A DNA stretch of 64,000 nucleotides from Streptomyces sp. NBC_01276 (lineage in GTDB: Bacteria; Actinomycetota; Actinomycetes; Streptomycetales; Streptomycetaceae), in the NCBI RefSeq assembly GCF_041435355.1, contig NZ_CP108442.1, positions 6,384,501 through 6,448,500 of the forward strand. The letters are read 5' to 3'. The notes beneath the pieces were generated by a model. It made no database searches. It was given only the letters and a program-made list of their open reading frames with translations, and was not told the origin of the DNA. The position numbers and the translations under genes were made by a program. The number at the start of each line of letters is the position of its first letter. Within the stretch, counting starts at the first letter, position 1. Positions 41,383 through 54,256 of this stretch are shown here, in pieces.

Positions 41383-42888
41383 GTGACTCTCCCTGCTCCG
41401 GCGAAGACCCTCGCCTCCCCGGCGCCGGGCCCCGCCGCCGACGAGGGCCTGGCCCGTCGGCTGCGCGCCCTCGCCTGCACCGCCCCGCTGCACGACCTCG
41501 ACGTCCGCAAGGCCAATCTGGCCGGCGAGTACGGGGTCTACGCCATGGCGGAGGTGGCGCTGTCGGCGATCGACCTGGTCACGCTCAACATGGACTTCGA
41601 CACCGGGGCCGACCACGAGCAGATAGTGGCCCGCCTGCTGCCGCGCGTCGCGGCCCAGGCCCCGGCGCGCCCGGCGGCCGAGCACGAGCGCGTCGCGCGC
41701 TGGGTGCTGGAGAACCTGATCAACGTGGGCAGCGTGGACCGCGGCTTCCGCGCGATCTACGGCACCTTCGGCCCGGACGGCGTGTACGTCCGGCGCGACT
41801 ACGACTTCAAGCTGATCGAGGAGGTCCCGGGCTACGGGGGCGCGGTGTACCTGCGCACCACCGACGAGGCGGTCAACGTCCTCGTCGGTGCGCTCGACAC
41901 GGACGTCACCAGCGCGCAGATCGCCGCCGAGGTCAAACTGGAGGTGCTGATCAGCCGCGGCCGGCTCGCGGACGCGCAGCTCGCCGCCGAGCAGGCCCGC
42001 TACCGCACCGTCCAGTACGCCGAGACGCTGCGCCGCACCCTCGACGCGACGCGGCGCAACGTCCGCGCCGTGGACTGGCTCCAGGCCGTCCCGGACATGA
42101 TCGCCGAGGCCCTCGACCACGTCGCCGACCGCTACCGGCACGAGAACGCGATCCTCACCAACATCCGCAAGGCGCGCGACGAGGCGGAGGACCCCGACAA
42201 CAAGCGGCGCGCGGCCGAGCTCGTCGACATCGTCAAGGACTGCATCCGCCGGCACACGCAGCTCCAGTCCCGGCTGCTCGACGCGGGCCCGCTCTTCCGC
42301 GCCGAACAGGACCGCCAGGCCTTCGCCGCGCCCGCCCCGCGCTCCGGCATCGACCTCTACGGCCAGCTCGTGGCCCCCCTGCTGCCGCTGCCGCTGGAGC
42401 GGGCCACCCGGGTCACCGACGCCTTCTTCGCCGCGGGCACCGGGCTGCGCACCCCCGTCTCGGTCCGGGTCGCCGACCTGGTGGAGATCCTGCTGACCCC
42501 GCCCGTGGAGCGGGAGCACCTCGGCGTGGAGATGCCGGAGCCCGACCTGATCGCCACCCCCGACGACAGCCGCTTCAGCGAGGAGCAGCTCGCGCGCGCG
42601 ACCCGGCTCCTGGACCTCCCGCACGACGCCCCACGCCGGCTGTCCGGACTGCTCGCCGAGGCCCGGCGCGACGACCCGGACCTGCCCTACCTGGTGGCGC
42701 TGCTGGCCGTCCACGCCGCGAGCCCGGCGGTGGGCACGGCGTACCGCCAGGGCGAGGAGCGGATGCTGTTCGCGGTGGACGACGGCACCGAGCTCGACGA
42801 CCCGGAGTTCGGCGGTGCGGACCTCATCGTCGGCACGGCCCTCCTGGACGCCGCCGGCATGGCGGCCGACCGCGCGGAGGCGTCATGA
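41383..42888 (+). CDS. kleisin-like subunit, JetA/MksF-type (SMC-like complex)
   Basis: 501 aa from the GTG at 41383; earlier in-frame ATGs (41338, 41350) exist. TAGTCT seven bases before the GTG could be a -10 for a leaderless transcript. The N-terminal half looks like a winged-helix dimer region (LAGEYGVYAMAEVALSAIDL; GPDGVYVRRDYDFKLIEEV). A long helical middle follows (LEVLISRGRLADAQLAAEQA; LRRTLDATRRNVRAVDWL), then a C-terminal region with a short winged-helix-like end. This is the order of MukF, MksF and JetA. Assignment is by architecture and by the SMC-like gene downstream, not by a decisive motif. Divergent from pxpA. Confidence 0.65.
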   Translation: MTLPAPAKTLASPAPGPAADEGLARRLRALACTAPLHDLDVRKANLAGEYGVYAMAEVALSAIDLVTLNMDFDTGADHEQIVARLLPRVAAQAPARPAAEHERVARWVLENLINVGSVDRGFRAIYGTFGPDGVYVRRDYDFKLIEEVPGYGGAVYLRTTDEAVNVLVGALDTDVTSAQIAAEVKLEVLISRGRLADAQLAAEQARYRTVQYAETLRRTLDATRRNVRAVDWLQAVPDMIAEALDHVADRYRHENAILTNIRKARDEAEDPDNKRRAAELVDIVKDCIRRHTQLQSRLLDAGPLFRAEQDRQAFAAPAPRSGIDLYGQLVAPLLPLPLERATRVTDAFFAAGTGLRTPVSVRVADLVEILLTPPVEREHLGVEMPEPDLIATPDDSRFSEEQLARATRLLDLPHDAPRRLSGLLAEARRDDPDLPYLVALLAVHAASPAVGTAYRQGEERMLFAVDDGTELDDPEFGGADLIVGTALLDAAGMAADRAEAS

Positions 42889-43172
42889 CACCGCCGCCTC
42901 CGGCCGAGGTCCCGGATCGGCGCCGGTTCCAGGCCGACGCGCCCGGCGGGCGCCCGGCGGCGGGCGGACGTGTCGTCGGCGTCGGCGTCGGTCCGGCCCG
43001 GGGGCGGACGCCGGCCGACCGGGCGAGGCCTCCGGCCCGCGCCCACCGCGGGAGCGGGCCGCGCCCGCCGGCCTCCGCCGCCCACACCGCCCGTCACCGC
43101 ACCACCGCAGAACCCGTACACCGCACCACCGCAGAACCCGTACACCGCACCGCCGAGGAGACCCACCCGTGA
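42885..43172 (+). CDS. possible 95-aa linker ORF between the kleisin-like and JetB-like genes
   Basis: The frame begins ATGA on the upstream stop and ends TGA within the GTGA start of the downstream gene, so both ends overlap by four bases as in coupled operons. The product is Arg/Pro-rich (MTPPPPAEVPDRRRFQADAP) and without recognised domains. The end includes a 24-bp tandem repeat. The fit may be chance, because the same interval read in the frame of the upstream gene gives QNPYTAPPQNPYTAPP, a typical Pro-rich tail. A frameshift could therefore be involved. Confidence 0.35.
   Translation: MTPPPPAEVPDRRRFQADAPGGRPAAGGRVVGVGVGPARGRTPADRARPPARAHRGSGPRPPASAAHTARHRTTAEPVHRTTAEPVHRTAEETHP
43096..43150 (+). 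repeat. 24-bp tandem repeat, two units and a partial third
   Basis: Two perfect units of 24 bases (43096-43119 and 43120-43143, starting ACCGCACCACCG and ending AACCCGTAC) are followed by seven matching bases. It lies just upstream of the JetB-like GTG. In the frame of the kleisin-like gene each unit encodes the octapeptide QNPYTAPP. Confidence 0.9.
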
Positions 43173-44092
43173 GCGACCACCACGCCGAGCGCCCCGCGTG
43201 GAGCGAGCCGCAGACCGCATGGAGCGAGCCCGAGGCCTCGTCGGCTTCGGTCGCGCCCGCCCCCGGAGGGTCCGTCACGCCGGCCGACGCCGCCGACGCC
43301 GCCCGCCTCGTCGCCTTCGGACTCCAGCCCCGGCTGCTGCCCGCCCGCGACGCGGAGTACGCCGAGCTGCTGCGCCGCTACCGCGAGGAGCCCGCCTTCG
43401 GGCGGCTCGCCGACGCCGTCGCCACCGGCCTCGGCCTCGTCGTCCTGGAGGTGTCGCCCCGGGCCGGGATGGCCGTCGCGGCCGCCGAGGACTCCGTCTT
43501 CGCCGTCCGCATGGGCGACTACGCCCGCCGCACCGCCGCGGACGGCGGCGACCGCTTCCTGCACGGCCTCGCCCACCTCGCCGTCGCCGCCCTCGCCTTC
43601 CCCCGTCCCGAGGACCTCGCCGACAACGGCTACATCGGCCGCATCACCGTCAACGGCGTCGACGCCTTCGTCCGCCAGACCTGCCGCCGCCTGGAGGAGC
43701 GCGCCGAGGAGCTCGGCGAGAACACCGACCCGGCCTCCGACGCCCCCGGCCTGGAGGCCGCCTGGCGGGTCTACGCCCGCCGCAGCGCCACCGGAGCCAC
43801 CAAGGACGCCCGCCGCCTGGCCGGCTCCACCACCGGCATCGTCGGCAAGGCCGCCGCCTTCCTCACCGAGTCCGGGTTCCTCCAGCGCACCGGCGACGAG
43901 GCGGGCGGCACCTACCGCACCACCCCCCGCTACCAGCTCCAGGTCCGCGACATGGCGGGCAGCGCGGCCATGGCCGAACTCCTGGAACTCGGCGTGGTCC
44001 CCGTCAGCGACGGCTCCGCCACCCTCCTGCCGCCGCCCGAGGGCGACGACCTGGAGCTGGCCGCCGACGCGGGCCTGCCCTTCCACGCCTGA
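43169..44092 (+). CDS. JetB/MksE-like accessory subunit
   Basis: 307 aa; GTG with GAGGAG eight bases upstream. The first 45 residues are low-complexity (AWSEPQTAWSEPEAS). The rest contains two probable winged-helix units: LRRYREEPAFGRLADAVATG, then LGLVVLEVSPRAGMAVAA, and later TGIVGKAAAFLTESGFLQRT with YRTTPRYQLQVRDM. MukE, MksE and JetB have this size and double winged-helix arrangement and bind the kleisin. No enzyme motif. The SMC-like gene follows after 67 bases. Confidence 0.65.
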   Translation: MSDHHAERPAWSEPQTAWSEPEASSASVAPAPGGSVTPADAADAARLVAFGLQPRLLPARDAEYAELLRRYREEPAFGRLADAVATGLGLVVLEVSPRAGMAVAAAEDSVFAVRMGDYARRTAADGGDRFLHGLAHLAVAALAFPRPEDLADNGYIGRITVNGVDAFVRQTCRRLEERAEELGENTDPASDAPGLEAAWRVYARRSATGATKDARRLAGSTTGIVGKAAAFLTESGFLQRTGDEAGGTYRTTPRYQLQVRDMAGSAAMAELLELGVVPVSDGSATLLPPPEGDDLELAADAGLPFHA

Positions 44093-44159
44093 GCCCGCAC
44101 CCGATCCCGTACGCCCCCCCACGCACACGACCCACGACAGAGCACGAGAGTCCGCCGCC

Positions 44160-47100
44160 ATGTACGAGCTGTCCCGGATCCGCCTCTACTCCATCGGGCC
44201 CGCCGGCGCACGCTACGCCGACACCGTGCTCGACCTGCGGGGAGTCGGTGAGCCGGTGCCCCACCCGGCGCCCGCCCAGGCGGAGTTCTTCGAGGAGGAG
44301 CCCACCGGGCCGCCGCGCCGCCCCGCGCCCGCCGGCGTGCTCTTCCTGGAGAACGGCGGCGGCAAGTCCGTCCTGCTCAAGCTGATCTTCTCGGTGATGC
44401 TCCCCGGCCACCGCAACACCCTCGGCGGCGCCAGCTCCGGCGTGCTGCGCAAGTTCCTGCTCGCCGACGACTGCGGACACGTGGCCCTGGAGTGGCAGCA
44501 CACCCAGACCGGCGAGTGCGTGGTCGTCGGCAAGGTCAGCGAATGGCGCGGCCGGCAGGTCTCCAACGACCCCCGCAAGTTCGCCGAGGCCTGGTACTCC
44601 TTCCGCCCCGGTCCGGGTCTGAGCCTGGACAACCTCCCCGTCGCCGAGGCCACCGCAGTACGCCCGCCCGTCGAGGGAGCCTCCGGCGCCCAGGGCCGGC
44701 GCCGCACGATGAAGGGCTTCCGCGACGCCCTCACCGAGGCCGGGAAGGCGTACCCGCACCTGGAGGTGTACTTCGAGGAGATCCACGACCGCTGGAACGA
44801 GCACCTCACCGAACTCGGCCTCGACCCCGAACTCTTCCGCTACCAGCGCGAGATGAACGCCGACGAGGGCGAGGCCGCGGGCCTGTTCGCGGTCAAGAAG
44901 GACTCCGACTTCACCGACCTGCTGCTGCGCGCCGTCACCGACACCCGCGACACCGACGGCCTCGCCGACCTGGTCCACGGCTTCGGCAACAAGCTGGGCC
45001 GCCGCGCCGAGCTGATGGCCGAACGCGACTTCACCGCGGGCTCGGTGGACCTCCTCACCCGCATCGTCGAGGCCGCCGAGACCCGCTCCCGGCTGCGCGA
45101 CGTCCACGCCGGCGCCGAACGCCGTACGCGCACCCTCGCCCGGCGGCTGTCCGCCCGCGCCGGAGCGGAACGCGGCCGCGCGGCCGACCTCGCCCAGCGG
45201 GTCACCGGCGCCGCCCACGAGGTCACCGCCGCGGAGGCGCAGCGCACCCGCAGCGCCGCGGTCTCCGCCGAACTCGCCTACCGCCACGCCTCGCTGGCCC
45301 TGACCGTGGCCGACAAGGCCGCCGCCGCCCAGCGCCGCGAGCTCCTCGAAGCCCGCACCCTGCACTCCGCCTGGCAGGCCGCCGAGACCGTGCTGCGCCA
45401 CCGCGCCGCCGCCGACCGCTCCGCCCGGGTCGCCGCCGCGATCCTGGAGGCCGAGCGGGACGCCGCCCCGGCCCTGGCCGCGCGCGCCACGGCCGCCGCC
45501 GAGCTGGTACGGGCCCTGCACACCGCCGCCGAGCAGGGCGAGCGGGCCGCGAACGAGGAGGAGGAGCGCTCCGCCGGGCTCCAGGACATCGGCGAGACCG
45601 CCCACCGCGACGCCACCTCCGCCGCCACCGCCGCCCAGCGCGCCCGCAGCGAGGCCGAACACCTGCGCACCCGCCTCGCCGAGGTCGCGCAGGAGACCGC
45701 CGAGGCCGTGAAGGCCGGCTGGCTCGACGACACCGCGCCCGACGCCGACCCGGCCCGCGCCGCGCTCGCCGCCAGCGACGCCGAGAAGGCCGCCGTCGCC
45801 GCCTGGGAGGAGTCCCGCGACGCCGCCCGTGCCGCCAGCGACGCCGCCCGCGAGGCCACCGCCGCCGAATCCCGCGCCGAGCTCACCGCAGCCCGCGCCG
45901 CCGACGCCGCGGAGGTCGCCGAAGCCGCCCACGCGGCCGAGGAACGCGCGGCCGCCTCGCTGGCCGCCGCGCCCCGCCTGGCGGAGCTGCTGGGCCTCCC
46001 GTCGGCCCCCGACACCTTCCTCCCGCGCCCGCGCGGGGGCGCGCAGCCCGGCTCCGCGGGCCCCGGCGCACCGGCCGGGGCGGCCACCGCGGCCGGCGCC
46101 GGCCAGACCGCCGGCGCGGACGCCGCGAGCCCGGGCACCGTGGTGGTCACGGACCGGTCGGGCCCCGCCTCCGCCTCCGGATCCTCCACCGCCGCAGCAG
46201 GCCTCACCGTCGCCGACCTCGACCGGGGCTCCGACGAGCTGGTCCGGCTGCTCGCCGACACCGTCGGCTCCGCCGAACGCCAGCTGTTCGAGCTGCGCAC
46301 CGCCGCCGCCGACGACGCCCGCATCCTCGGCGCCCTCGGCGACGGCGGCCTGCTGCCGCCCGGCCCCGACGTCCTCGCCACCGTCGAGTACCTCGGCGAA
46401 CACGGCATCCCGGCCCTACCCGGCTGGCGCTACCTCGCCCAGTCCGTGGACCCGGCCGACCACGCCGCCGTCCTCGCCGCCCGCCCCGAACTCGTCGACG
46501 GCGTCGTGATCACCGACCCCGACACCCACAGCCGTGCCCGCGAGGTCCTCTCCGCCGCCGCGCTGCTGCCCCGCTCCACCGTCGCCGTCGGCACCGCCGC
46601 CGCGCTGCTGGCCCCCGTGCCGCCGGCCGGGGACCCCGGCGCCGACTCGGGGGTGTTCCTCGTCCCGCCGAACCCGGCCATGCACGACGAGCACGCCGCC
46701 GACGAGGAGCGCCAGGCGCTCCGCGCCCGCGCCACGGCCCGCGACACCGAGATCCGGGACCTCGCCGCCCGCCTCTCCGGCGACCGCGAGCTCGCCGCCC
46801 GGCTCGCCTCCTGGCGCACCGGCTGCCCGCCCGGCCGCCTGGACCGGCTCGCCGAACACGCCGCCGCCGCCCGGACCTTCGCCGAGGAGGCCGACGCCGA
46901 GCTCGCGGAGGCCCGTACGGTACGCGCCGAGGCCGACGAGGCCGCCGCCGACGCGGCCCGGGTCCGCGACGAGCGCCAGGACACCGCCCAGCGCGCCCGA
47001 CGTGCCGCCGACGCCCTCTCCGGCCTGGCCCACCGACTGCGCGAGCGCTCCGGCTGGCAGACGAAGGCCCGCGAACTCGCCGAGGAGGCCGCCGAGTCGG

Positions 47101-48929
47101 AGGCCCGCGCCGAGGCCTGCCTGGACCGGGCCCGCGCCGCGGACGAGGACCGCCGGGCCGCCCAGCGCGCCGCCGACGACGCCCGCCGCACCGCCCGCGC
47201 CCTGCGCGCCGAACGCGCCGAGATCGCCGGGGCCCCCGACCAGCTGCCCGCCGAGGACGCCCCGCGCGCCCCGCTCCCCGACCTGCGCGAGGCCTACCGG
47301 GCCGCCTCCCGGCTCTACGAGAAGGTCGGCGTCGGCGCCGACCTGCGCGCCGAACAGGCCCGCGCCGAGAGCGACGAGAGCGCCGCCCTCGCCGAACTCG
47401 ACCGCCTCACCAACAAGGTCCGCACCCGCGCCGCCCAGCTCCTCGAAGGCACCGACGGCGCCGACGGCCCCTCCCGGCAGGCCGCGGCGGCCCGCGCCGA
47501 ATCCCTCGTACAGATGCTGGAATCCCGGGCGTCCACCGCGAGCGAGCAGCTCGGCCGGCTGCGCGGCGAGGCCGAACGGCACGCCCCGGCCGACGGCGGG
47601 GCCCACACCGAACTCCCCGAGGAGCTGGTCCCGGCCGACGTGGAACAGGCCCAGGGCCTGCTGCGCACCGCCACCGCCCAGCTCGCCGCGCACTCCGCCG
47701 CCGTGGAGAGCGCCCGCGCCGCCCACGCCGACCTGCTGCGCGCCCACCGCGCGGCCGAGGACGGCGCCGGGGGCTTCGACGAGACCGCGGCCCTCCTGCG
47801 GGACCTGCTGCGCGACCACAGCCACCCGGAGGACGAGCAGGAGCCGGTGCCGCACCCGGGCAGCCTGGAGGAGGCCCGGCAGTCCGCCGCCGACGCCCGC
47901 CGCTCCCTGCGCGGCTGCGCGGCCGACCTCTCGGCCGCCGAGTCCGCGGTGCGCGAGGCGAGCGACGTGCTGGTCCGGCACGCCAACGCCACCCGCTACG
48001 AGCAGGTGCGCACCCCCGCCCGCCAGCAGATCCGCGAACTGCCCGCCTCCGCCCTGCCCGAGCACGCCGCCGCCTGGGCCGCGGCCTTCGCGCCCCGGCT
48101 GCGCGTCCTGACCGACGAGCTCGCCCAGCTGGAGCGCAACCGCGACAGCATCGTCGACCGGCTCCGCGGCCTCGTCGAATCGGCCCTGGCCACCCTGCGG
48201 TCCGCGCAGCGCCTCTCCCAGCTGCCGGAGGGCCTGGGGGAGTGGTCGGGCCAGGAGTTCCTGCGGATCCGCTTCGAGGAGCCCGACCAGGCCACGCTCA
48301 CCGAGCGGCTGGGCGAGGTCATCGACGAGGCCACCCGCGCCGCCGTCAAGAAGAACAGCACCGCCTCCTTCGGCGAGGGCGACCGCCGCGACGGCATGTC
48401 CCTGCTGCTGCGCGGCGTCCAGGCGGCCCTCGAACCCAAGGGCATCGCCGTGGAGATCCTCAAGCCGGACGCGGTGCTGCGCGCCGAGCGGGTCCCGGTC
48501 GGCCAGATGGGCGACGTCTTCTCCGGCGGCCAGCTGCTGACCGCCGCCATCGCGCTGTACTGCACCATGGCGGCGCTGCGCAGCAACGACCGCGGCCGCG
48601 ACAAGCACCGCCACGCGGGCACGCTGTTCCTGGACAACCCGATCGGGCGCGCGAACGCGACCTACCTCCTGGAACTCCAGCGGGCCGTCTCCGACGCGCT
48701 CGGCGTCCAGCTGCTCTACACGACGGGCCTCTTCGACACCACGGCCCTCGCCGAGTTCCCGCTGGTCATCCGGCTGCGCAACGACGCCGACCTGCGGGCG
48801 GGCCTGAAGTACATCAGCGTCGAGGAGCACCTGCGGCCCGGCCTGCCGCAGCGGTCCCCGGACGGCGAGACCATCCACGGCGAGATCACCGCGACCCGCA
48901 TGTTCCGCCGCTCGACCGCCGGTTCCTGA
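44160..48929 (+). CDS. SMC/MukB/JetC-like coiled-coil ATPase
   Basis: 1589 aa. Walker A lies at the N-terminus, FLENGGGKSVLLKLIF (about 63-78, Lys69), lacking the first Gly of GxxGxGKS. Two long Ala/Arg/Glu-rich coiled-coil stretches flank a central insert (about 620-700, Gly/Ala-rich, then a probable hinge around GIPALPGWRYLAQSVDPADHA). The C-terminal head has the ABC signature VFSGGQLLTAAIALYCTMA (about 1451-1469) and Walker B GTLFLDNPIGRAN (about 1486-1498), with Asn where the catalytic Glu is expected. The tail NPIGRANATYLLELQRAV is conserved-looking. Acts with the two upstream gene products as a DNA-loading complex by inference. No JetD-like nuclease gene is adjacent. Confidence 0.8.
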   Translation: MYELSRIRLYSIGPAGARYADTVLDLRGVGEPVPHPAPAQAEFFEEEPTGPPRRPAPAGVLFLENGGGKSVLLKLIFSVMLPGHRNTLGGASSGVLRKFLLADDCGHVALEWQHTQTGECVVVGKVSEWRGRQVSNDPRKFAEAWYSFRPGPGLSLDNLPVAEATAVRPPVEGASGAQGRRRTMKGFRDALTEAGKAYPHLEVYFEEIHDRWNEHLTELGLDPELFRYQREMNADEGEAAGLFAVKKDSDFTDLLLRAVTDTRDTDGLADLVHGFGNKLGRRAELMAERDFTAGSVDLLTRIVEAAETRSRLRDVHAGAERRTRTLARRLSARAGAERGRAADLAQRVTGAAHEVTAAEAQRTRSAAVSAELAYRHASLALTVADKAAAAQRRELLEARTLHSAWQAAETVLRHRAAADRSARVAAAILEAERDAAPALAARATAAAELVRALHTAAEQGERAANEEEERSAGLQDIGETAHRDATSAATAAQRARSEAEHLRTRLAEVAQETAEAVKAGWLDDTAPDADPARAALAASDAEKAAVAAWEESRDAARAASDAAREATAAESRAELTAARAADAAEVAEAAHAAEERAAASLAAAPRLAELLGLPSAPDTFLPRPRGGAQPGSAGPGAPAGAATAAGAGQTAGADAASPGTVVVTDRSGPASASGSSTAAAGLTVADLDRGSDELVRLLADTVGSAERQLFELRTAAADDARILGALGDGGLLPPGPDVLATVEYLGEHGIPALPGWRYLAQSVDPADHAAVLAARPELVDGVVITDPDTHSRAREVLSAAALLPRSTVAVGTAAALLAPVPPAGDPGADSGVFLVPPNPAMHDEHAADEERQALRARATARDTEIRDLAARLSGDRELAARLASWRTGCPPGRLDRLAEHAAAARTFAEEADAELAEARTVRAEADEAAADAARVRDERQDTAQRARRAADALSGLAHRLRERSGWQTKARELAEEAAESEARAEACLDRARAADEDRRAAQRAADDARRTARALRAERAEIAGAPDQLPAEDAPRAPLPDLREAYRAASRLYEKVGVGADLRAEQARAESDESAALAELDRLTNKVRTRAAQLLEGTDGADGPSRQAAAARAESLVQMLESRASTASEQLGRLRGEAERHAPADGGAHTELPEELVPADVEQAQGLLRTATAQLAAHSAAVESARAAHADLLRAHRAAEDGAGGFDETAALLRDLLRDHSHPEDEQEPVPHPGSLEEARQSAADARRSLRGCAADLSAAESAVREASDVLVRHANATRYEQVRTPARQQIRELPASALPEHAAAWAAAFAPRLRVLTDELAQLERNRDSIVDRLRGLVESALATLRSAQRLSQLPEGLGEWSGQEFLRIRFEEPDQATLTERLGEVIDEATRAAVKKNSTASFGEGDRRDGMSLLLRGVQAALEPKGIAVEILKPDAVLRAERVPVGQMGDVFSGGQLLTAAIALYCTMAALRSNDRGRDKHRHAGTLFLDNPIGRANATYLLELQRAVSDALGVQLLYTTGLFDTTALAEFPLVIRLRNDADLRAGLKYISVEEHLRPGLPQRSPDGETIHGEITATRMFRRSTAGS

Positions 48930-49058: not shown

Positions 49059-49457
49059 CTACCGGGGCCGGGGGGCCGCCCCGCGCGGGTCGCCCACGCC
49101 CCGGCCGGGGAGTCCCGGTGCCCGCGTCCGCTCCCGGGCCGCGCTGCTCGGCTCGGACACCACGCCGCCGCGCTGGTTCCACATCTGCCGGGTGATCCAC
49201 ACGTCCAGCACCGCCCAGGTGGCCACGACCGTCCCGGCTATCCCGCAGATCACCATCGGGAAGGCCAGCCAGGAGCCCGTCACCGCGAGGAAGAAGGTGA
49301 TCGTGGCCTCGGTCAGGGTCACCGCCACGATCAGCAGCGCCCGCACCGCGGACGCCCGTACCGGGTCCGGCATGCGGCGCCGGCGGGCCGGCTCCTCCAC
49401 CCACAGCCCCCGCCCCGGCATCCGCGCCGCCGCGCCGTCCTCTTCGTACATCCTCAT
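49059..49457 (-). CDS. small membrane protein near the conservon
   Basis: 132 aa from MRMYEEDGAAARMPGRGLWV (ATG at 49457); an inner ATG two codons later is possible, and the frame is open upstream to 49688 but that part looks non-coding. Two membrane helices are visible: RALLIVAVTLTEATITFFLA (about 40-59) and WLAFPMVICGIAGTVVATWA (about 63-82). A charged C-terminus follows (RQMWNQRGG, then Arg/Pro-rich). Function unknown. Divergent from cvnA over 376 bases. Confidence 0.75.
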   Translation of the reverse strand: MRMYEEDGAAARMPGRGLWVEEPARRRRMPDPVRASAVRALLIVAVTLTEATITFFLAVTGSWLAFPMVICGIAGTVVATWAVLDVWITRQMWNQRGGVVSEPSSAARERTRAPGLPGRGVGDPRGAAPRPR

Positions 49458-49833: not shown

Positions 49834-52770
49834 ATGCGCTTTCGCGGGAAGTCCATCCGCCGGAAGATCGTGGCGTTGCTCTTGGTGCCGCTCGTCTCCC
49901 TGACCGCCCTGTGGGGCTTCTCCACGGTCATCACCGGCCGGGAGGCGATCCAGCTCCTCGACGTCGCGTACGTCATCGACAAGGTCGGCTACCCGATCGA
50001 GGACGTCGTCCGCGTCATCCAGAAGGAACGCCGCCAGACCCTGGTCGTGATCGGCGACCCCACCGCCGCCGCCGCGACCGCCGAACTCACCAAGAGCCGC
50101 GCCGCCACCGACGCCATGGTCCGCGAGATCACCGCGAGCGCCCGCGACCCCAAGGTCGCCGACGAGCTCACCCCGCAGGCCCGCGCCCGGCTGCGCTCCA
50201 TCCTCGACGCCTTCCACGGCATCGCCGCGCTGCGCAGCTCCGTCGACCGCAGCTCCCTCGCCCCCGGCCAGGCCCTGGAGCTCTACAGCCGGCTGGTCGA
50301 CCCCTGCTACGAGTTCCTGATGAACCTCCACGCCCTGGAGAACGTCGAGATGGACAAGCAGGGCCGCGCCCTCGTCGGCATCACGCGCGCCCGCGAGACC
50401 CTCGCGCGCGAGGACGCGGTGATCGCCGCGTCCCTCGCCGCCCGCAACGTCAGCGCAACCGACGTCCGGCACGTCTCCGACCTCGCCGCCAACCGCGGCC
50501 TGCTCTACGAGTTCAACCTCGCGATCCTCCCGGCCGAGGACCGCGTGCTCTTCGAGCGCTACTGGAAGGGCCCGGAGACCAAGGCCCTGCGCGACGCGGA
50601 GGAACGGTTCATCGCCACCGGCGCCGGCAAGAACCCCCGCGCCGTCACCGCCGCCCAGTGGGACGAGGCCGCGGGCAAGGTCCTCGACGACCTCGCCACC
50701 ATGGGCACCGCCGCGGGCGACCGCTACCAGAAGCGCGTCAAGCCGGTCGCGATCGAAGTCCTCGTCCAGGCCGCCGTCGCGGGCGTCCTCGGCTTCATCG
50801 CCCTCGCCGTCTCCGTCGTCCTGTCCGTCCGCATCGGCCGCGACCTCATCCGCGACCTCTCGCAGCTGCGCAAGGACGCCCACGAGGCCTCCGGCGTCCG
50901 GCTTCCCAGCGTGATGCGCCGCCTCGCCGCCGGCGAGACCGTCGACGTGGAAACCGAGGCGCCCCGCCTCGAATTCGAGAAGGACGAGGTCGGCCAGGTC
51001 GGCCTGGCCCTCAACAGCCTCCAGCGCGCCGCCGTCGAGGCGGCCGTCAAGCAGGCCGAGCTGCGCCGCGGCGTTTCCGAGGTGTTCGTGAACCTCGCCC
51101 GCCGCAACCAGGTGCTCCTGCACCGCCAGCTGACCCTCCTCGACACCATGGAACGGCGCACCGAGGACACCGAGGAACTCGCCGACCTCTTCCGCCTCGA
51201 CCACATGACCACCCGCATGCGACGCCACGCCGAAGGCCTGGTGATCCTCTCCGGCGCCGCCCCCTCCCGCCAGTGGCGCAAGCCCGTCCAGCTGATGGAC
51301 GTCGTACGGGCCGCCGTCGCCGAGGTGGAGGACTACGAACGCATCGAGGTCCGCCGACTGCCGCGCCTGGGCATCGAGGGCCCCGCCGTCGCGGACGTCA
51401 CCCACCTGATCGCCGAACTCCTGGAGAACGCCACGGTGTTCTCGCCCCCGCACACGGCGGTCCAGGTCCACGGCGAGCGGGTCGCGAACGGCTTCACCCT
51501 GGAGATCCACGACCGCGGCCTCGGCATGAACCCCGAGGCGCTCCTGGACGCGAACCTCCGGCTCGCGGAGACCCCCGAGTTCGAGCTGTCCGACACCGAC
51601 CGCCTCGGCCTCTTCGTCGTCAGCCGCCTCGCCCGCCGCCACGCCGTCAAGGTCGTCCTCCAGACCAGCCCCTACGGAGGCACCACCGCGGTGGTCTTCC
51701 TGCCCGCCGAGCTCCTCACCGAGGCCCCGGACACCAACGGCACCGGCATCCGCCTCGACGGCGTCAAGGGCGCCAAGGCCGCCCCGGGCCTCCTGAGCGG
51801 CCAGGGCGCCAAGGGAGTCAAGGCCGCCCCCGCCCCCAAGCCGTCCGACCGGCCGGTGCACGCCGCCGTCGAGCGCGCGTCCGCGCCGGGCCGCCCGCTG
51901 CCCGCCGGCGTGCTCAACGGACCGGTCGAACTGGAGGCGCCGCTCGGGGCGCTCGGCCTCGACGGGCCGGACGGCCTCGACGAGCTCACCCCCGGCATCC
52001 CGGGCCTCACCGGTGTCGGCGGGCGCCCGCCCATGGCCTCCCTCGACGACGAGACCCCGCCCGGCGGCATCTCGCGCACCGCCCTGCTGGGGCTGCGCGC
52101 CGCGGACCGCCCCCACAGCGACCGGCACCCCGAACGCGGCGCCTGGAAGGGCGACCGGATCGGCGACCGCGGCGCGGACCGCCACCGGGACCGGAGCCGG
52201 GACACCGAGGCGGAGTCCGGCCGCACCCGCACCCGTGCCACCGGACGCGAACGGGAGCCGCTGCCCCCCACGGGCCCGGTCCGCCTGGAGCGCCCCCACC
52301 AGGAACCGGTGCGTCCGGACGGCCCCCGTACGGGCGCGGCGGTCCCGCTGCCCCGGCGGCACCCCACCCCGACCCTGGTCGCGGAGCACGGCCGCCGCGT
52401 CGAGCCCCGCCCGGCGACCGCCGGTTCCCGGCCCCCGGCCACGGCCGGCCCGCCGTCCGGTGCCGACGAGGGCGCGCAGCCGCGTACGTCCCCGTCGGCG
52501 CCCGCGTCCGGCCCCGGCGGGCTGCCCCGCCGGGTGCGCCAGGCGAACCTCGCACCCCAGCTCAAGAACGGCCCGGCCCCCGCCGAGGCCGGGACCGACG
52601 CCGACCCGGTGACCGACCGCGACGCGGAGGCCGTGCGCCGGCGCATGTCCGCCCTCCAGCGCGGCTGGACGGCGGGCCGCGAACAGTACGCACAGCAGCA
52701 GTCCGAGACCGAGGCCGGCACCCCCGCCGCCAGCGGTCCCGCGCACGAGAACGAAGGGGACGGTCGATGA
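49834..52770 (+). CDS. cvnA: CvnA-type conservon sensor histidine kinase
   Basis: 978 aa. Helix 1 is RRKIVALLLVPLVSLTALWG (about 10-29). An extracytoplasmic nitrate-sensor-like helical domain covers about 45-300, helix 2 is VLVQAAVAGVLGFIALAVSV (about 308-327), and a HAMP-like linker follows. The ATPase domain has N-box ELLENATVFSPP (about 528-539), G1 IHDRGLGMNPEAL and G2 LGLFVVSRLARRHAV. A clear phospho-acceptor H-box is not seen. The 300-residue C-terminal tail is Pro/Arg-rich and disordered. GGGGAGG lies before the ATG. In S. coelicolor conservon complexes resemble eukaryotic G-protein receptors. The stop overlaps cvnB. Confidence 0.93.
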   Translation: MRFRGKSIRRKIVALLLVPLVSLTALWGFSTVITGREAIQLLDVAYVIDKVGYPIEDVVRVIQKERRQTLVVIGDPTAAAATAELTKSRAATDAMVREITASARDPKVADELTPQARARLRSILDAFHGIAALRSSVDRSSLAPGQALELYSRLVDPCYEFLMNLHALENVEMDKQGRALVGITRARETLAREDAVIAASLAARNVSATDVRHVSDLAANRGLLYEFNLAILPAEDRVLFERYWKGPETKALRDAEERFIATGAGKNPRAVTAAQWDEAAGKVLDDLATMGTAAGDRYQKRVKPVAIEVLVQAAVAGVLGFIALAVSVVLSVRIGRDLIRDLSQLRKDAHEASGVRLPSVMRRLAAGETVDVETEAPRLEFEKDEVGQVGLALNSLQRAAVEAAVKQAELRRGVSEVFVNLARRNQVLLHRQLTLLDTMERRTEDTEELADLFRLDHMTTRMRRHAEGLVILSGAAPSRQWRKPVQLMDVVRAAVAEVEDYERIEVRRLPRLGIEGPAVADVTHLIAELLENATVFSPPHTAVQVHGERVANGFTLEIHDRGLGMNPEALLDANLRLAETPEFELSDTDRLGLFVVSRLARRHAVKVVLQTSPYGGTTAVVFLPAELLTEAPDTNGTGIRLDGVKGAKAAPGLLSGQGAKGVKAAPAPKPSDRPVHAAVERASAPGRPLPAGVLNGPVELEAPLGALGLDGPDGLDELTPGIPGLTGVGGRPPMASLDDETPPGGISRTALLGLRAADRPHSDRHPERGAWKGDRIGDRGADRHRDRSRDTEAESGRTRTRATGREREPLPPTGPVRLERPHQEPVRPDGPRTGAAVPLPRRHPTPTLVAEHGRRVEPRPATAGSRPPATAGPPSGADEGAQPRTSPSAPASGPGGLPRRVRQANLAPQLKNGPAPAEAGTDADPVTDRDAEAVRRRMSALQRGWTAGREQYAQQQSETEAGTPAASGPAHENEGDGR

Positions 52771-53204
52771 CCGCACCGCAGACCGGAAACGACACCCGGG
52801 GCCGCGGCTCCGGCCCGCTCAACTGGCTCCTCGACGAACTCGTCGACAAGGTCGGCAGCATCCGCAAGGCGGTCGTCCTCTCCGGCGACGGCCTGCCCAC
52901 CGGGAGCTCCAAGGACATCACCCGCGAGGACAGCGAACACCTGGCCGCCGTGGCCTCCGGCTTCCACAGCCTGGCCAAGGGCGTCGGCCGGCACTTCGAG
53001 TCCGGCCGGGTCCGCCAGACCGTGGTGGAGCTGGACGAGGCCTTCCTCTTCGTCATGGCGGCGGGCGACGGCAGCTGCCTGGCCGTCCTGTCCGACGCCG
53101 ACTCCGACGTCGGCCAGGTCGCGTACGAGATGACGCTGATGGTCAAGCGCGTCGGCGACCACCTGGCGACCGCCCCGCGCACCGGGCTGCCAGCCGGAGG
53201 GTGA
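52767..53204 (+). CDS. cvnB: CvnB roadblock/LC7 protein
   Basis: 145 aa. The roadblock/LC7 fold is indicated by LNWLLDELVDKVGSIRKAVV (about 18-37), LSGDGLPTGSS and FLFVMAAGDGSCLAVLSDAD. Roadblock proteins regulate small GTPases of the MglB type, which matches CvnD. ATG overlaps the cvnA stop (ATGA). Cytosolic, recruited to the membrane complex in the studied S. coelicolor conservon. Confidence 0.94.
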   Translation: MTAPQTGNDTRGRGSGPLNWLLDELVDKVGSIRKAVVLSGDGLPTGSSKDITREDSEHLAAVASGFHSLAKGVGRHFESGRVRQTVVELDEAFLFVMAAGDGSCLAVLSDADSDVGQVAYEMTLMVKRVGDHLATAPRTGLPAGG

Positions 53205-53214
53205 GTCGGACGGA

Positions 53215-53649
53215 ATGAGCGACCCAGGCCAGGACCGACCCGGCGATCCCCGGGGGACCCAGCCCGACACCGGCCACCCGCACTGGTTCGACGACGACGC
53301 GGGTCCCGTCGTACGCCCCTACGCCATGACGCGTGGCCGGACCAGCCACGCCGGGCAGCACCGCCTGGACCTGATCGCCCTCGTCGTCGCGGAAGCGGCG
53401 GCCGACGATCCGGTCTGGGACCTGACCCTGTCCCCGGAGCACGCCCACATCCTCGGGCTGTGCCGGGAACGCCCCCAGTCGGTGGCGGAACTCGCCGCGG
53501 ACCTGGACCTCGCCATCGGCGTGGTGCGGGTCCTGATCGGCGACCTCGTCCACGACGAACTGGTCCACGTGACCAGGCCGGTGCCCCCGGCCGAACTGCC
53601 TGATGAATCCATTCTGCGTGAGGTGATCGATGGCCTTCGGGCGCTCTAG
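53215..53649 (+). CDS. cvnC: CvnC, DUF742 protein
   Basis: 144 aa. DUF742 features: VVRPYAMTRGRTSHAGQHRL (about 32-51), LDLIALVVAEA, and the winged-helix-like SVAELAADLDLAIGVVRVLIGDL ending in LRALx (cited in part). The C-terminus RPVPPAELPDESILREVIDG is family-typical. Starts ten bases after cvnB; overlaps cvnD by 20 bases. Proposed adaptor between sensor and GTPase. Confidence 0.93.
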   Translation: MSDPGQDRPGDPRGTQPDTGHPHWFDDDAGPVVRPYAMTRGRTSHAGQHRLDLIALVVAEAAADDPVWDLTLSPEHAHILGLCRERPQSVAELAADLDLAIGVVRVLIGDLVHDELVHVTRPVPPAELPDESILREVIDGLRAL

Positions 53650-54256
53650 CCGCACCGGCGCGATGCATGCCGTGTCGCCGGTCGAGCCGCTGACCCTGAA
53701 GATCCTGGTCGCGGGCGGTTTCGGGGTGGGCAAGACCACCCTGGTCAGTGCTGTGAGCGAGATCCGTCCGCTGCGGACGGAGGAACGCCTGTCCGAACCG
53801 GGCGCCGCCGTCGACGACATCGACGGGGTGGAGGGGAAGAGCACCACCACCGTGGCCATGGACTTCGGCCGCATCACCCTGCGCGAGGACCTGGTGCTCT
53901 ACCTCTTCGGCACGCCGGGCCAGGACCGCTTCTGGTTCCTGTGGGACGAGCTGGCGCAGGGCTCCCTCGGCTCGGTGGTGCTGGCGGACACCCGCCGCCT
54001 CGCCGACTGCTTCGCCGCCATCGACTACTTCGAGCGGCGCGGGATCCCCTTCGTCGTCGCGGTCAACTGCTTCGACGGCGCCGAGCGCCATCCCGTCGTG
54101 ACCGTCCGCGAGGCGCTCGACCTCGATCCGGAGGTGCCGGTCCTGCTCTGCGACGCCAGGGACCGGGAATCGGTCAAGGACGTCCTCGTGGGCGTCGTCG
54201 AACACGCCATGTCCCTGGCCCGGTCCCGCCGCAGGAGCCTGAGCGCCGGGGCCTGA
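53630..54256 (+). CDS. cvnD: CvnD GTP-binding protein
   Basis: 208 aa small GTPase of the conservon. G1 is GGFGVGKTTLVSAV (about 28-41). G3 FGTPGQDRFWFLWDELAQG (about 93-111) has the PGQ needed for hydrolysis. G4 reads VNCFDG in place of NKxD, as is usual in the family. Basic C-terminus. The start lies within the cvnC end (20-base overlap), so translation is coupled. It is the last conservon gene; a hairpin follows. Confidence 0.95.
   Translation: MAFGRSSRTGAMHAVSPVEPLTLKILVAGGFGVGKTTLVSAVSEIRPLRTEERLSEPGAAVDDIDGVEGKSTTTVAMDFGRITLREDLVLYLFGTPGQDRFWFLWDELAQGSLGSVVLADTRRLADCFAAIDYFERRGIPFVVAVNCFDGAERHPVVTVREALDLDPEVPVLLCDARDRESVKDVLVGVVEHAMSLARSRRRSLSAGA

Follow-up and report, generated by a model that had tools for sequence, protein, structure and literature searches.

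A near-universal Wadjet type III core without the JetD nuclease in Streptomyces and related genera: a candidate second condensin

What is the role of a Wadjet motor at a locus that carries no Wadjet nuclease? The question is raised by three genes, jetA, jetB and jetC, found at positions 41383-48929 in a 64,000-nt window of contig NZ_CP108442.1 of Streptomyces sp. NBC_01276 (the window is the whole stretch of DNA analysed; coordinates are positions in it unless a locus or genome is named). Wadjets, of which type III is JetABCD, are anti-plasmid systems according to the available part of a review (PMC10586767). We found the core jetA in nearly all the Streptomyces and Streptomycetaceae genomes searched, and JetD at none of the core loci examined. 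The reading that we prefer, with a probability of roughly 0.6, is that JetABC would be a domesticated, nuclease-free loop extruder of the Wadjet III type that works on chromosomal DNA as a second condensin, in analogy to MksBEF and MukBEF.

Identity of the three genes

The original prediction had described three long co-directional open reading frames (ORFs) of 501, 307 and 1589 codons and had placed them in the Jet/Mks/Muk group. The frames were found on the + strand as described, and the assignment could be sharpened to Wadjet type III. The product of jetA (41383-42888, GTG start), the kleisin subunit, matched the PADLOC model JetA3 (PDLC00567) with 620 bits and an E-value of 6.6e-187, while the product of jetC (44160-48929, ATG start), a coiled-coil ATPase of the SMC (structural maintenance of chromosomes) type, matched JetC3 (PDLC00588) with 1397 bits. 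For JetB (43169-44092, GTG start), the subunit resembling KITE (kleisin-interacting winged-helix tandem element) proteins and MukE, no family was found at E <= 0.001 in Pfam, NCBIfam or PADLOC. Still, JetB was 46% (L112), 50% (L174 and L176) and 54% (L188) identical to the JetB proteins of complete jetABCD operons, and 58% identical to that of L175, a contig that begins inside the operon. On the strength of these sequence comparisons, the trio is JetA, JetB and JetC of the Wadjet type III family.

General-purpose searches gave no names. None of the three proteins was named by Pfam or NCBIfam, and JetC matched no Pfam family at E <= 1, SMC_N and SMC_hinge included. The Muk and SMC models of both collections, profiles whose sensitivity may be too low, did not match any of the trio at E <= 1, and a sequence search of the PDB returned no relevant match. 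The folds that the original prediction had proposed by architecture, a double winged helix for the 307-residue protein and a kleisin/MukF-like fold for the 501-residue one, were supported by AlphaFold2 models. The JetB model had a predicted local distance difference test score (pLDDT) of 77.8 and a predicted template modelling score (pTM) of 0.71; in a Foldseek comparison with the PDB, its top 15 rows were all MukE/MukBEF or JetABC entries. For the JetA model (pLDDT 77.8, pTM 0.60) the best PDB matches were MukF-sized chains in MukBEF/MukEF entries.

A chance trio of ORFs was rejected. Homologues were numerous among the scored candidates (1118 of 7991 for JetA, 1404 of 7999 for JetB), and the ratios of nonsynonymous to synonymous substitution rates (dN/dS), given as medians of the comparisons of the window genes with 74 related loci, were well below 1: 0.107 for JetA, 0.210 for JetB and 0.229 for JetC. 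All three genes are under purifying selection.

The motor motifs of JetC were found by motif alignment: a Walker A motif ENGGGKS from residue 64, a signature FSGGQ from about residue 1454 and a Walker B-like LFLDNP from residue 1489 (48624-48647). In 100-residue blocks, conservation among core JetC proteins was 96-98% over the first 300 residues and 91-96% from residue 1301 onward. A low-complexity stretch at about residues 615-700 (46002-46259, + strand) precedes the putative hinge. Its length varied from 29 to 244 residues in 24 Streptomyces core JetC proteins, compared to 16-25 residues in eight JetC proteins from JetD-bearing operons. In six Frankiaceae core JetC proteins it spanned 17-101 residues; therefore, a long stretch is no marker of the whole nuclease-less clade. 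The available part of PMC12647877 ascribes obstacle bypass to the Wadjet hinge and adjacent coils, and extrusion to the core, so one might guess that the variable stretch matters for bypass.

Two side observations concern the same genes. The jetA-jetB gap holds a 24-bp tandem repeat of 2.8 copies (43090-43155). The JetB proteins of two complete type III operons tested (L112:10123-10920 and L113:7816-8631) had no PADLOC match; since PADLOC was blind to JetB in both, type III systems may be under-annotated.

Absence of JetD and conservation of the core

We scored JetD at each locus with a hidden Markov model (HMM) built here from JetD proteins, with a cut-off of 30 bits. In the Streptomyces set of 81 core loci (the window and the 80 top-ranking contigs among 562 confirmed) no locus had a JetD above the cut-off. 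The original prediction had called for a linkage check in relatives, and linkage was indeed found: jetA, jetB and jetC were present together in 75 of these loci, and the other six stop at a contig edge just after jetA. At least 3 kb beyond the jetC frame was available in 70 of the 75. As a positive control, the HMM detected JetD in 23 of 24 JetD-bearing loci. The single miss was L111, a contig ending inside jetC; a second contig of the same genome ends with the rest of jetC and JetD (L187).

The same result was obtained outside the genus. No JetD was detected at 11 loci from ten other Streptomycetaceae genera, each with jetA, jetB and jetC and at least 3.6 kb past jetC, nor at 19 Frankiaceae core loci (one per genome), of which 12 had at least 1.2 kb past jetC and seven ended inside the operon or directly behind it. 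The possibility that relatives keep JetD next door was thus rejected for the core loci of Streptomyces, Frankiaceae and the other genera.

JetD was also sought elsewhere in the genome of NBC_01276, and neither of two models found it, each of which detected JetD in other genomes. The PADLOC JetD3 model PDLC00594 had no match there, nor in the 14 control genomes of that search; among 295 Streptomyces genomes it matched in 40, in 24 of them at E < 1e-40 (strong matches below). The absence rests mainly on this model: PF09983 (JetD_C), likewise without a match in the genome and found in 6 of 12 genomes and in Corynebacterium glutamicum, overlooks the known type III JetD of genome G242.

Genome-wide presence was judged with the jetA and JetD models. 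The core jetA was present in 289 of 295 Streptomyces genomes (286 of the 288 of good quality, where both genomes without it have more than 1000 contigs each) and in 198 of 200 Streptomycetaceae genomes, covering all 17 genera, one of them by a weak match only. Such counts bear out the suggestion of the original prediction that the locus is a fixed part of the genus. Beyond the family the picture changed. A class-wide draw found core jetA in 44 of 296 genomes, of which 28 belong to Streptomyces and 15 to one other family, the remaining one being a weak match. This second family is the Frankiaceae, where the core jetA was present in 19 of 35 genomes and so is not fixed.

Could the locus be what is left of a Wadjet island in decay? 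In favour of this, it has only three of the four defining subunits. Nevertheless, the JetC frame measured 1537-1747 residues in 69 of 69 loci, the median dN/dS values were 0.11-0.23 over the 74 loci and retention was near-universal. We rejected decay on selection and retention, and would give it hardly any weight.

The neighbourhood is conserved as well. Upstream lie 5-oxoprolinase genes, the nearest being a divergent LamB/YcsF gene (5-oxoprolinase subunit A, Pfam PF03746; 40486-41253, - strand). Downstream lies a cluster that encodes, by Pfam, a NIT-HATPase kinase, a Roadblock/LC7 protein, a DUF742 protein and an ATP_bind_1 protein (49834-54256, + strand), and that we take to be a conservon. 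All these genes lie outside the system, and, as originally predicted, no nuclease gene is adjacent. Two 5-oxoprolinase carboxyltransferase genes were found in 60 and 59 of 74 loci (their expected places being covered in 70 and 71), and the conservon kinase gene in 51 of 74 (covered in 69). A Pfam scan of nine flanking proteins named no nuclease domain. No conserved fourth gene emerged from the Streptomyces flank survey, the Pfam scan of the nine flanking proteins or the maps drawn of 18 further loci. A 132-residue gene without a Pfam match (49059-49457, opposite strand), which lies between jetC and the conservon, was found in 54 of 74 loci.

Loss of JetD and the complete systems of the same genomes

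To place the nuclease-less copies among Wadjets, a joint tree was built from JetA, JetB and JetC-head columns (34 rows, 1375 columns), with 11 of the 81 Streptomyces loci, 11 of the 19 Frankiaceae core loci and 12 JetD-bearing loci. The rows did not include L111 and L175, whose operons are truncated at contig ends, L166 and L173, whose JetC is split over two frames, the remnant L172, the distant L114 and L179-L185, or L196/L197. All 22 nuclease-less rows formed one clade (99/99). The JetD-bearing L188 stood next to it (94/92) and the other JetD-bearing rows lay outside; the rooting rests on these JetD-bearing outgroups. An early JetA tree of 44 rows, without L188, needed one change as well, with a nuclease-less clade at 99/97. 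Because the joint tree groups the nuclease-less copies among complete Wadjets, a single loss of JetD is favoured.

The system was also compared with complete type III Wadjets (JetABCD). The window proteins share with them the JetA3 and JetC3 model matches, the gene order A-B-C, a JetB that is 46-54% identical and has a MukE/JetB-like modelled fold, and the odd Walker B sequence LDNP. They differ in that the window system is without JetD and near-universal in its family, whereas JetD-bearing copies are patchy, and in that the coil of the Streptomyces core JetC has the longer, variable low-complexity stretch.

Complete and nuclease-less versions occur side by side in the same genomes. This leads to another explanation, namely that the core is an incomplete Wadjet borrowing JetD from a second jetABCD locus. 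A strong JetD3 match was present in 24 of the 295 Streptomyces genomes and 22 of these 24 had a second jetA match, so the core JetABC and a JetD do sometimes share a cell. On the other hand, 271 of the 295, NBC_01276 included, had no strong JetD3. Furthermore, 18 of the 20 JetD regions fetched from the 24 genomes contained all four genes (two of them with JetC in two frames), which indicates that JetD brings its own core. We therefore consider borrowing improbable. Reading the table, we counted more than one jetA match in 26 of 295 genomes, the 22 included; the genomes G406, G415, G457 and G503 had two jetA matches and no strong JetD3.

The two remaining JetD regions were L175, which begins inside the operon, and L172, where a JetD frame was found with a JetC remnant and neither A nor B (L172 8511-10427). 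In two genomes, JetD3 matches were located close to either end of the chromosome and pointed in opposite directions (G437:C1 66624 and 8038764; G379:C1 15696 and 9222617, the second G379 match being partial), a placement like that of terminal inverted repeats. In the available part of a defence survey (PMC10482375), Wadjet is reported in 42% of Actinobacteria, and more than 43% of Streptomyces Lamassu and Wadjet systems sit in chromosome arms.

A chromosomal role and the evidence against it

We propose that the ancestor was a type III Wadjet whose lineage would have lost JetD, probably once, before the Streptomycetaceae and Frankiaceae copies split. The DNA-translocating core of JetA kleisin, JetB KITE and JetC SMC ATPase would have been kept complete, and in the Streptomycetaceae JetABC would have become a fixed, housekeeping-like complex. 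It would most likely be a dimer that uses ATP to extrude loops, like MukBEF and MksBEF, and would handle the cell's own DNA without cutting it, as a second condensin beside Smc. That the three proteins form a complex, extrude loops and have the chromosome as their substrate is what we infer. The proposal of a housekeeping loop extruder is made because the genes are fixed and under purifying selection and have retained the motor but not the nuclease.

Known systems without a nuclease offer a precedent. MksBEF of Pseudomonas aeruginosa and MukBEF of E. coli likewise combine a kleisin, a KITE and an SMC protein with no nuclease; their gene order F-E-B corresponds to A-B-C, and MukE and MukF are what the JetB and JetA models most resemble. 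The window proteins, however, belong to the type III Jet lineage, with type III Jet models as their best matches. For this reason the JetD loss looks independent of that of MksBEF. The review finds it tempting to speculate, in its available part, that MukBEF and MksBEF arose from Wadjet (PMC10586767). MksBEFG of C. glutamicum is also an actinobacterial Wadjet-type complex present alongside Smc (available parts of PMC10123090 and PMC11898615), but it includes a nuclease, MksG, and is directed against plasmids. Streptomyces Smc-ScpAB is of the same condensin class; it differs from the Jet trio, where JetC is outside all Pfam families at the threshold given above and the partners are Jet-type. 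The genome of NBC_01276 has one SMC_hinge match elsewhere (C1:2267169-2267354), so that the Jet trio would be a second SMC complex.

Several observations weigh against the proposal. The patchy presence in Frankiaceae (19 of 35) fits an accessory role in that family, and some Frankiaceae copies may be broken, since the JetC of L119 is split over two frames and that of L125 has only 1187 residues. One stop codon was present in the jetA matches of G073, G101, G318 and G502 in the Streptomyces survey and of G618 and G742 in the family survey, and the JetC of L208, from the set of other genera, has 1324 residues. ABC and SMC ATPases are expected to carry a catalytic Walker B glutamate (LDE), where type III JetC reads LDNP. 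The asparagine occupied this position in 10 of 10 type III JetC proteins compared, with JetD present or not (the window, L112, L113, L114, L115, L117, L118, L122, L123 and L127); hydrolysis may thus differ from that of canonical SMCs, a property common to complete type III systems. As for the history, JetA-only and JetB-only trees with L188 and L111 (omitting the distant L114 and L179-L185 and the near-duplicate L166) set JetD-bearing copies between two nuclease-less groups. These single-gene trees need two changes, with weak support (87/76 for A and 83/53 for B), and an approximately unbiased (AU) test on the JetA tree did not reject one nuclease-less clade (p 0.28). Two losses are possible. 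Finally, a nuclease other than JetD may act in trans.

The last point touches on the serious rival, a non-cutting role in plasmid silencing. JetABC could still be immune: it would find circular plasmids by loop extrusion and silence, compact or sequester them uncut, or recruit an unrelated nuclease encoded elsewhere. Complete Wadjets of type III, with the anti-plasmid function cited at the outset, are its closest relatives, and the motor motifs are kept. Yet the core jetA occurs in 289 of 295 Streptomyces genomes, in most cases beside the same genes, unlike the JetD-bearing copies, which are patchy (24 of 295), and the nine flanking proteins scanned offered no nuclease domain. We consider an immune role possible, though on the unlikely side.

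In the available parts of two 2021 Streptomyces Hi-C papers (PMC8410768 and PMC8410849), Smc-ScpAB or SMC is treated as the condensin; MksB does not occur there, the terms searched not including Wadjet and Jet. In that of a Streptomyces SMC paper (PMC13121528), MksB occurs only in the reference list, within a title naming MksB a mycobacterial condensin. We found no description of a JetD-less Jet complex in Streptomyces in the open-access literature, as far as its text was available and with subscription papers and preprints outside the scope.

A nuclease-less Wadjet motor that is near-universal in a family suggests that a defence machine became a second complex for handling the chromosome, one that is still unstudied. 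If this is true, studies of chromosome folding in Streptomyces may have overlooked an SMC complex. With complete and nuclease-less versions in the same genomes, the loss on one branch of the best-resolved tree and the nuclease-less version fixed in a family amenable to genetics, the transition from defence to housekeeping can be tested directly. The chances appear to us evenly balanced that Streptomycetaceae own a second condensin, a Wadjet III motor minus the nuclease that took on the task of organising or segregating chromosomes that are large, often linear and present in multiple copies; it would be an independent repeat of the transition from defence to chromosome proposed for MksBEF and MukBEF.

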